DNA of 43,597 nt from positions 1 to 43,597 of the forward strand of contig CAIJED010000264.1 of the NCBI GenBank assembly GCA_903819595.1, written 5' to 3'. Shown here piece after piece: positions 22,185-25,240 of this stretch; position 1 is the first letter of the stretch; the number at the start of each line of letters is the position of its first letter. The stretch comes from an uncultured Methanomicrobiales archaeon. GTDB taxonomy: Archaea; Halobacteriota; Methanomicrobia; Methanomicrobiales; Methanospirillaceae. The notes under the pieces are model-generated. The model was not told the origin of the DNA, ran no database searches, and saw nothing but the letters and a program-made list of their open reading frames with translations. A program made the position numbers and the translations under genes.

Positions 22185-23162
22185 TTATCCAGTAAAGATT
22201 TTCTCCAGGACCGACTCCTCGATTGACCCCTGTTTTTCAATTGCTGATCGCCAGTGGTCAGGTTTTTCCCAGTGGTACCAGTCCTGCATCGCCATCATGA
22301 CCAACCATCGGTTGGTCACATCAAGACCGCACTGGTAGAGTTCAGAGAACAGATCAGGCCCGTCATTTTTATTGAAATCCGTAGTGAGGCAGAGCTTAAG
22401 AATATTGGACATCGCATCGCCGACAACTTTGGTGTGGTACCAATGAGAACGGCTCCAACGGCTGTCCATCATCTCTTTCATATCAAGTGTCCGGAACTGC
22501 TGGAGTTCCGGGATGTTGATCATGGGGTTTAACCGGTACTCGGACAGGATATAGGCAAGGAGCATGTCCCGTGCATAATAGATCGCATTATGCATCACAT
22601 AATACCGCTGGGGAAGGCTCTGGTTTGCCTTTTCGAGGGCATGCATCTCGTACATACTCTCCCTCATCAGGAGGTATACCTGCGAATTTCGCATCACCGG
22701 GAATTTATTCGAGATGTAGATATTTGATAAAATAGACCATGGTACTTCTGAAAGCGTATTCCGGAAGAGTAAAAAGAGGTGGAATAACAGTTTTTTCCGT
22801 TGTGCGATCTCAAGTTCCCTCGTATTTTCGTCCTTTAATACATCCAGGTAGATCTGTTTCATCCCTTCGCCTGCAGATACTTCGTCAAATGAAAGTACCT
22901 TAAACCCGCCATTTTTTGCCGCAATCCCCTTGAATATTAACTCAATGCAGTTTTTTGTAATGACAAAATCTTTCAGCATCCCGAGTTCACTGCTCGAAAA
23001 CAGGATCATATTATTCCCGGTTCCATAGGTGTAATCATCGATCAGGATACCCTGGTCCGGGATGTCATCCTGTCGCTTCAATGTGATCCTGATCCCGAGC
23101 AGTTCCTCTGCATGGGCAAGCAGCTCAGTTAGTTCATCCGAGAGATTGTAGGTACTGCTCAT
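22185..23162 (-). CDS. Unrecognised conserved-looking protein
   Basis: 325 residues, soluble, mixed alpha/beta at the N-terminus and mostly helical after residue 110. I do not recognise a family. Visible points: an acidic stretch DDIPDQGILIDDYTYGTG, a helical segment rich in Leu and Phe (KKLLFHLFLLFRN), QRYYVMHNAIYYARDMLLAYILSEYRLNP, and an aromatic C-terminal part (RWSRSHWYHTKVVGDAM, DWYHWEKPDHWR) unusually rich in Trp and His. The His residues could bind metal, but no standard hydrolase motif is formed. ATG 23162 gives MSSTYNLSDEL. It lies 137 bases ahead of aspS and 320 bases downstream of the MNT-HEPN fusion, on the same strand. Codon use looks like that of its neighbours. Confidence 0.7.
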   Translation of the reverse strand: MSSTYNLSDELTELLAHAEELLGIRITLKRQDDIPDQGILIDDYTYGTGNNMILFSSSELGMLKDFVITKNCIELIFKGIAAKNGGFKVLSFDEVSAGEGMKQIYLDVLKDENTRELEIAQRKKLLFHLFLLFRNTLSEVPWSILSNIYISNKFPVMRNSQVYLLMRESMYEMHALEKANQSLPQRYYVMHNAIYYARDMLLAYILSEYRLNPMINIPELQQFRTLDMKEMMDSRWSRSHWYHTKVVGDAMSNILKLCLTTDFNKNDGPDLFSELYQCGLDVTNRWLVMMAMQDWYHWEKPDHWRSAIEKQGSIEESVLEKIFTG

Positions 23163-23482
23163 GGAGAATCACGCCCGGAGTCCGGGGTAGCGGGGTCCTG
23201 ATCCATAGGGTGTATAACGGGCATTCAGGGAAATTTTAAGCCTGACTTCGTTATTCTTTCTATATCCTTTTCGTGTAGAATAAATCTTTCATCCGGCGGG
23301 GCATTTTTTATTCTATTCAGGTTTTTTAGAAAAAGTCTGGCCGACCATGTAAGAATACATTGTCCGGCCGAGAGTATATTTTGTGTTTGGAAGAAAATCT
23401 CAAGGCCCTGGTGTTGCAGAACCAGATTTCAGGGTCTTATATGAGTAATATAGTGATGATTCGCAGAATACCGGCCGAGCAT
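23163..23482. other. Intergenic interval without a supported gene
   Basis: AT-rich, with T-runs near 23307-23312 and 23323-23328 and a TATA-like CTATATCC. Probably holds the promoter of the unrecognised gene (minus) and the transcript end of the MNT-HEPN gene. No coding frame is convincing. Confidence 0.35.
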
Positions 23483-24196
23483 CTATATTTCGGGATTCGC
23501 AGTGCCGGAGGAGGACATCTCCGTATCCTGATGGTGATGACGGGCACCTGCCTGGATGGCGGACCGGACGACCTGGATAAATCCCGGGACTTCAGTCACG
23601 ATAAAATGCCAGAGCAGGAACGGGTCAGCACCGAAACGTGCCTCTGCAATACTCTGGCTGATCCCTTCAACCTCTTTCCAGGGTGCGCCCGGGTACATCT
23701 CTTTCCGGGGAGCTGAGATCCTCGTGATTGCAAGGCTGATGATCTGAAGGCTCCTTTCACATGCCCGGCGTAGTAATGACTCCCTCGCAAACGACTCGTA
23801 AGCCATCCCCTTGCACCGTACCTGGAGAAATTCAAGTTCGCCGAGTACCTGCATCAGTGCTTCCTGGTCAACCTCCCCCATTTCGGGATCGAATGATGCG
23901 GCTGCGGGAGATTCCGCTAGCACACGGGTCGTGATGAGATTGATCTTCGTTGAAAAATACTCCTCAAGGTGCCATTTAAGACCGAGGTAATGCCGGTATG
24001 TTTCAGATCCGGGTGAAAACTCGACCATCAGTTCAACCGTATCGACAGGAATTGCATCTCTCCGTGCAAATGCCCCGAACATCCCGATTTTTTTAACCCC
24101 ATACATCCCTTTGATGATTGGAAAAATTGTGTTAAGCCCGATAAGGACTTCCTCAGCCATTGAAACATCCGGCGCCCGTATTCCTTGTTTGATCAT
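23483..24196 (-). CDS. Single-chain MNT-HEPN fusion with both active sites degenerate
   Basis: 237 residues. Residues about 19-105 follow the minimal nucleotidyltransferase pattern: IGMFGAFARRDAIPVDTVEL and MVEF align with the usual LFGSFARGEA...SDIDLLVEF. The Gly-Ser is Gly-Ala, and the two metal-binding Asp are Thr53 and Glu55. Residues about 115-215 follow the HEPN (DUF86) pattern: SLLRRACERSLQIISLAITRI, PWKEVEGI, ARFGADPFLLWHFI. The RNase/AMPylation motif RxxxxHxY is replaced, with Ser, Glu (185) and Arg (187) in the key places. Normally MNT antitoxin and HEPN toxin are separate proteins. A dead fused pair suggests a structural or regulatory role. ATG 24196 follows GGGGG. Domain calls rest on pattern alignment by eye. 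Confidence 0.7.
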   Translation of the reverse strand: MIKQGIRAPDVSMAEEVLIGLNTIFPIIKGMYGVKKIGMFGAFARRDAIPVDTVELMVEFSPGSETYRHYLGLKWHLEEYFSTKINLITTRVLAESPAAASFDPEMGEVDQEALMQVLGELEFLQVRCKGMAYESFARESLLRRACERSLQIISLAITRISAPRKEMYPGAPWKEVEGISQSIAEARFGADPFLLWHFIVTEVPGFIQVVRSAIQAGARHHHQDTEMSSSGTANPEI

Positions 24197-24331
24197 GCAT
24201 CCCCCGTGTGAGAACCACTTTTTAGTTATAACAACTTAAATCCTCTATTCGTGTCAAGTGGATCCCGGGTGGGTATCCGGACAGGAGGACCGTGTTCCGT
24301 CGCAACGCGCACCCTTCATGGAATTTACCAT

Positions 24332-25240
24332 CTATCCGGTATGCGCTGGTAATATCTTTAATATCCCTTCAGCGAGTCCCCTGCACTTTTCTTCATTAGT
24401 CATCATGGTATCCAGACAGGCCGCACCCGGGACTGTCATCGTGTCCCGTTCGTCCTGGATGAACAGGTCGAGGAAATCCTTGTACAATTCATAAGTGCCC
24501 GATGATGACGGGGAGAATCCTTTCGCTTTCATAAGTTCCCCTGCAGGACCACTAAAGGGGGCATTCCCGATAAACGGGCTCACCGCAACGACATATTGTC
24601 CCCGCAATGCATCCCGGACTCCCTGGCATTCCAGGATGGGAAGGATACTGGTGACCGGATTACTCGGACCGATTATCACGGCATCTGCTCCTGTAATCGC
24701 CTCGATAACGTCCTTTGTTGCAGCAGGTGGCGATTCTGGTTCGCGTTTTACTGCATCAATCGGCAGGGAACCCTTGCAGCGTACCCAGTACTCCTGAAAA
24801 TGGATGTAGTTCCCTGATGACCGGACCAGGGTAGCAACCGGTGAATCGGTCATGGGGAGCACCCCTGCCCGGACACCCATGTTCCTGCATAGGATGCTGG
24901 TAGCAGCGGTAAGGGATTTCCCCTGGTTGAGGAGATCACCTCGTGCAATCTGGACTGCACGGTCACGGTCGCCGATGGCAATATATTCATCGGTTCCCAG
25001 ATCGAGGAGGGCCTTGTGAGTAAGAAATGAGTCCCCGGAAATCCCCCACCATGTGTCAGTGTTGAGGATCCCGGCAAAGAGGTACATCACCGTATCGATA
25101 TCCGGTGACATGTGTCCCCCTGATATCCAGACATCTTCTGCGGTGTTTACCACGACATTGATATCCTGGTCATCGGAATAACTCCGGAAACCACGGAGGA
25201 GTTTTGGTGTGCCTGTCCCGCCGGAAAGAAAGGTAATCAT
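24332..25240 (-). CDS. cofD: 2-phospho-L-lactate transferase (coenzyme F420 synthesis)
   Basis: 302 residues. Transfers a phospholactate-type unit to the deazaflavin FO, making F420-0 or its dehydro form. Family marks: [17 protein letters not shown] at the N-terminus, [55 protein letters not shown] and [11 protein letters not shown]. The mobile C-terminal part and length are normal. No ribosome binding site precedes ATG 25240, and a TATA element is centred 25 bases upstream, so the transcript is probably leaderless. It is divergent from the HD gene and shares that promoter core. The partner cofE is 15 kb away in this window. Confidence 0.95.

Follow-up and report, generated by a model that had tools for sequence, protein, structure and literature searches.

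The window, a stretch of 43,597 nucleotides from an uncultured Methanomicrobiales archaeon, encodes a protein of 237 amino acids (positions 23483 to 24196, minus strand) in which a minimal nucleotidyltransferase (MNT) and a HepT-like HEPN domain are fused in a single chain and both active sites, by sequence, have been lost. This protein is probably a domesticated descendant of a toxin–antitoxin system that has turned into a pseudoenzyme and works without catalysis, by binding or as a scaffold.

Domain structure and active sites of the window protein

The open reading frame (ORF) of the fusion contains no internal stops. Its MNT half (residues 13 to 100, positions 23897 to 24160, minus strand) is recognized by the PADLOC PDC-S09 models (residues 15 to 93, E-value of 1.7e-14), by the family alignment and by a structural match to the MNT protein 1wot. 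The window sequence alone is too degenerate in this half for any Pfam match; in a family-level Pfam scan, the NTP_transf_2/Polbeta models matched 16 of 23 orthologues. The HEPN half (residues 112 to 214, positions 23555 to 23863, minus strand) matches the HepT-like family PF01934 in Pfam (residues 120 to 211, E-value of 3.7e-6, 27.1 bits against a curated cut-off of 23.5), and the NCBIfam search of the fusion protein gave 0 matches. The AlphaFold2 model has a pLDDT of 82 and a pTM of 0.55, at which the arrangement of the two halves relative to each other is uncertain. Its relatives in the PDB, as found by Foldseek, include 1wot for the MNT half, the HEPN toxin 7ae8/7ae6 for the HEPN half, and several two-domain nucleotidyltransferases, with modest E-values (none below 0.001) and a probability of 1.00 for the single-domain matches. 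When compared to known structures, the family profile matched 1wot with an E-value of 4.3e-11 and the MntA antitoxin with an E-value of 0.006. The intact fused chain of the original prediction is thus supported by the ORF and by the HepT-like, PDC-S09 and fold matches, and the structure prediction proposed as a check recovered both folds.

The MNT motif GSx10DxD reads Gly41-Ala42…Thr53-x-Glu55 in the window protein, with Ala42 (positions 24071 to 24073) in place of the Ser residue and Thr53-x-Glu55 (24032 to 24040) in place of DxD, and the third metal-binding Asp is replaced by Asn86 (23939 to 23941). In the HEPN half, Ser180…Glu185-x-Arg187 (23636 to 23659, all on the minus strand) replaces the RxxxxHxY motif. 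The original prediction had listed these substitutions correctly (Ala42, Thr53, Glu55, Ser180, Glu185 and Arg187), missing only Asn86. A precedent for such changes comes from the MntA protein of S. oneidensis, in which mutation of DxD to ExE suffices to abolish adenylylation while HepT binding is retained (PMC7641770). Sequencing error as the cause of these losses is ruled out, because three further genomes of the genus share them. Both halves of the protein are near neutral in charge, which makes RNA a less likely target.

Location, inheritance and selective constraint

When the order, class and phylum were searched, orthologues of this gene with the two domains in one ORF were detected in ∼34 Methanoregulaceae genomes. 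They score above ∼210 bits and are all confined to one part of this family; outside of it, the phylum sample contained no fused form above that score. In nearly all of the weaker full-length matches elsewhere in the phylum, a stop separates the two halves, and these matches represent two-gene pairs, the exception being a single low-scoring unbroken match (genome G151 of family f5) at an unrelated locus. The genus of the window, referred to here as g1, is represented by four genomes, namely the window's own and three congeners obtained from a contig scan that are labelled Methanoregulaceae or Methanomicrobiales.

Wherever the contig extends to them, the fusion gene is flanked by cofD, which encodes 2-phospho-L-lactate transferase (TIGR01819; positions 24332 to 25240, minus strand, in the window), on its upstream side and by aspS, which encodes aspartate–tRNA(Asn) ligase (TIGR00458; 20755 to 22047, minus strand), on its downstream side. 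Since this location is constant and relatives that lack the fusion, such as those in g6, can have cofD directly adjoining aspS, the fusion is a settled gene and not a mobile pair. The gene tree of the fusion broadly matches the species tree. A loss of the fusion in the g2 genome G137 was ruled out, as that assembly lacks aspS and cofD as well and simply has a gap. Another g2 assembly, G146, carries two fusion loci, one of them on a g5-like contig with aspS and cofD (C125, L042) that is nearly identical to G167; this contig probably stems from contamination, and the counts of active-site states do not include it. In g2 and g14, a HEAT-repeat-like protein, recognized by eye (L045:4194-5456), is encoded between cofD and the fusion; ORFs of similar size occupy this place in g7, g10 and g15, and g1 and g5 have no such gene there.

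The four g1 genomes show a synonymous divergence of 0.4 to 0.6 per site, with no frameshift or stop in the fusion gene. The dN/dS ratio is 0.06 to 0.14 for the whole gene, 0.02 to 0.06 for the MNT half and 0.04 to 0.16 for the HEPN half; in the same genomes it is 0.04 to 0.08 for aspS and 0.11 to 0.17 for cofD. Only the C-terminal tail (the last ∼20 residues) is less constrained, with ratios of 0.2 to 0.5. As the g1 values are no higher than those of the fusion in catalytically intact g2/g14 pairs (0.09 to 0.28), the constraint has not been visibly relaxed after the loss of catalysis. Upstream of the gene, a TATA-like, promoter-like block (24224 to 24250, minus strand) has a core, TTTAAGTTGTTATAACT at 24224 to 24240, that is identical in all four g1 genomes, and the DNA farther upstream diverges. 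An imperfect inverted repeat, AGTT…AACT, spans the TATA-like element and could possibly represent an operator.

These patterns bear on the view that the gene is a pseudogene-to-be, a functionless toxin–antitoxin remnant that drifts and has been kept by chance. Repeated loss of active sites across the family and the fast-evolving tail could be taken in its favor, but it is already contradicted by the pattern of selection: the frame is intact in four genomes at this synonymous divergence, the dN/dS ratio is similar to that of cofD, the MNT half is as constrained as aspS, and the promoter-like block is conserved. Drift is therefore a very improbable explanation. The expectation of the original prediction that the losses do not reflect random decay agrees with the low dN/dS ratio and the four intact copies, and that ratio, the fixed location and the conserved promoter-like block are the behavior of a domesticated, vertically inherited gene.

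The original prediction also proposed that the fusion might work together with the adjacent gene (22185 to 23162, minus strand), whose 325-aa product is an orphan with no match in Pfam, NCBIfam or PADLOC and no meaningful fold match in the PDB, despite an AlphaFold2 model with a pLDDT of 89.7 and a pTM of 0.89. Members of this orphan family are found in 57 of the 199 genomes of the order, and contig C379 of the window's genome carries a second copy. The gene adjoins the fusion on the same strand in g1, g2, g7, g10, g14, g15 and g39, as would be expected of a two-component system. However, several g5 fusions (those of G073, G129, G167, G187 and G195) come without a detectable 325-aa gene, which in turn is present without the fusion in g4, g6, g8, g9, g12 and other genera. 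Moreover, in the four-genome alignment of g1, the 325-aa gene has a conserved upstream block that is likely its own promoter (23244 to 23292, minus strand), located ∼190 to 240 bp beyond the end of the fusion gene and separate from the promoter-like block of the latter. Because each gene occurs without the other and the upstream blocks are separate, an obligate partnership is unlikely; the proposed partnership thus finds no support, a two-component system appears quite improbable, and the 325-aa protein is best regarded as genomic context.

Active-site losses across the family

Homologues with intact active sites, the observation that the original prediction named as speaking against it, do occur, but only in other genera; they represent the ancestral state, and the loss in g1 stands. 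Both sites are intact in g2 and g7, with Lys replacing Arg in g14 and in part of g2. Considered separately, the GSx10DxD motif is intact in g2, g7, g14 and most of g5, and RxxxxHxY is intact in g7 and most of g2 (with Lys for Arg in some). In g5, the MNT site is retained but the HEPN His residue has been lost in 10 of the 11 genomes counted, with different replacements in two subclades. The MNT site is dead in g1, g39, g15, g10 and a single g5 genome (G187); its metal-binding positions have changed together in all these lineages, g10 retaining one Asp. In the marker-gene tree, constructed with FastTree, this amounts to ∼4 independent inactivations of MNT (3 if g15, whose position is weakly supported, is misplaced), and the HEPN His residue has been lost independently ∼4 times.

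The fates of the two HEPN residues differ. Tyr is absent from 7 of the 8 MNT-dead sequences and from none of the 25 MNT-live ones, 10 of which have lost the His residue; Fisher's test yields 1.9e-6 in the case of Tyr and 0.42 in that of His, values that were calculated per sequence from non-independent sequences without correction for phylogeny, the real events numbering three or four. Since g2 and g7 keep both sites, the family started out as a competent MNT–HEPN pair. Because loss of the Tyr residue tracks the death of MNT and loss of the His residue does not, the comparison suggests that the ancestral fusion was conserved for its transfer of AMP to the Tyr residue, the RNase activity being dispensable.

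Comparison of the genera shows that the fusion took up its place between cofD and aspS in an ancestor within the Methanoregulaceae and was passed on vertically thereafter. The ancestral form had both active sites, with the Tyr acceptor tracking the MNT site, and was probably a switch that AMPylated itself, its MNT half adding AMP to the HEPN Tyr residue either intramolecularly or within a dimer. Several lineages, including g1, lost the MNT residues and then the whole switch but kept the chain. The g1 protein would act only by folding stably and binding a protein or a small ligand, for which it would be a constitutive adaptor or scaffold, and the properties under selection would be its fold and a surface.

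A more specific binding role, whereby the dead fusion neutralizes the active two-gene HepT toxins of the same genome without any chemistry, is improbable. The window's genome does contain a few other MNT/HEPN genes, and catalytically dead MntA still binds HepT (PMC7641770). However, dead or HEPN-dead fusions are found without any other detectable MNT–HEPN genes in G101 (98% complete), G035, G073 and G129, and likewise without a second detectable MNT–HEPN in the drafts G187, G191 and G200 and in most of g5; besides, the fusion shows low similarity to the resident genes of the window's genome (25% for the best other match). Given that G101 and most g5 genomes lack a second detectable match, resident pairs are unlikely to be the general target of the fusion.

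It is also unlikely that g1 has evolved a new catalytic or metal-binding site, for example in the MNT helix with His69, His76 and Tyr80 or at His197 of the HEPN half. Such a site would be in line with the 25 positions that are conserved in MNT-intact relatives and fixed to a different residue in g1, three of which (N69H, Y76H and L80Y) apparently cluster in a single MNT helix of the predicted model. In g1, His69 and His76 have been gained and fixed and His197 is conserved, and it has been proposed that HEPN domains can be active with alternative residues (PMC3710099), but the proposed new site has no known catalytic motif.

Extending the pseudoenzyme reading to the whole family, one could tentatively envisage that, on several parallel occasions in a single archaeal family, a switch that AMPylated itself became a module of purely structural or binding character and took on a new, housekeeping-like role in methanogens, g1 perhaps having a new His-rich site in the MNT helix; this broader scenario is possible but rather doubtful.

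Comparison with known MNT and HEPN systems

The closest characterized counterparts are the HepT–MntA pairs, such as SO_3166/SO_3165 of S. oneidensis (PMC7641770), which have the same two folds with MNT first and whose GSx10DxD and RxxxxHxY motifs are retained in the g2 and g7 orthologues (with Lys for Arg in some of g2). However, HEPN/MNT systems consist of two adjacent genes, are mobile and patchily distributed, and have the adenylylating and RNase residues, whereas all members of the family described here are encoded by one ORF, the gene is fixed in a housekeeping neighborhood, and both sets of residues have been lost in g1. Kanamycin nucleotidyltransferase, ANT(4'') and AadA, weak Foldseek matches with overall TM-scores of ∼0.25 to 0.35, have a HEPN-like domain at the C terminus and share the order of a nucleotidyltransferase followed by a helical bundle but are active antibiotic-modifying enzymes, in contrast to the window protein, which has no active site.

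Within one syntenic family, these genomes provide a natural series, with a toxin–antitoxin fusion that is fully competent at one end and a pseudoenzyme that is dead at both sites at the other, which makes the vague idea of a domesticated toxin–antitoxin system testable step by step. The series also indicates that the two activities are separable, the AMP-acceptor Tyr following the MNT site and the RNase His being lost freely.

Makarova et al. (2009) treated MNT–HEPN as mobile pairs and referred to a fusion carried by a plasmid (PMC2701414). Anantharaman et al. (2013) observed that the RNase residues are usually missing from HEPN domains fused to MNT and proposed that such proteins are domesticated, MNT-driven regulatory enzymes (PMC3710099). 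A literature search of incomplete coverage found no description of a doubly dead MNT–HEPN fusion. The fusions of Anantharaman et al. share with the window protein the domain fusion, the loss of the RNase motif and the domestication reading, and their description fits most of g5, where the fused protein has lost the RNase residues and kept an intact MNT site. They differ in that their MNT domain was taken to be an active enzyme, whereas that of the window protein is dead too, and in that some members of the window's family still keep the RNase motif. Accordingly, MNT–HEPN fusions without RNase residues were already known; what is new is a fusion that has lost the nucleotidyltransferase site as well and is nevertheless under selection.
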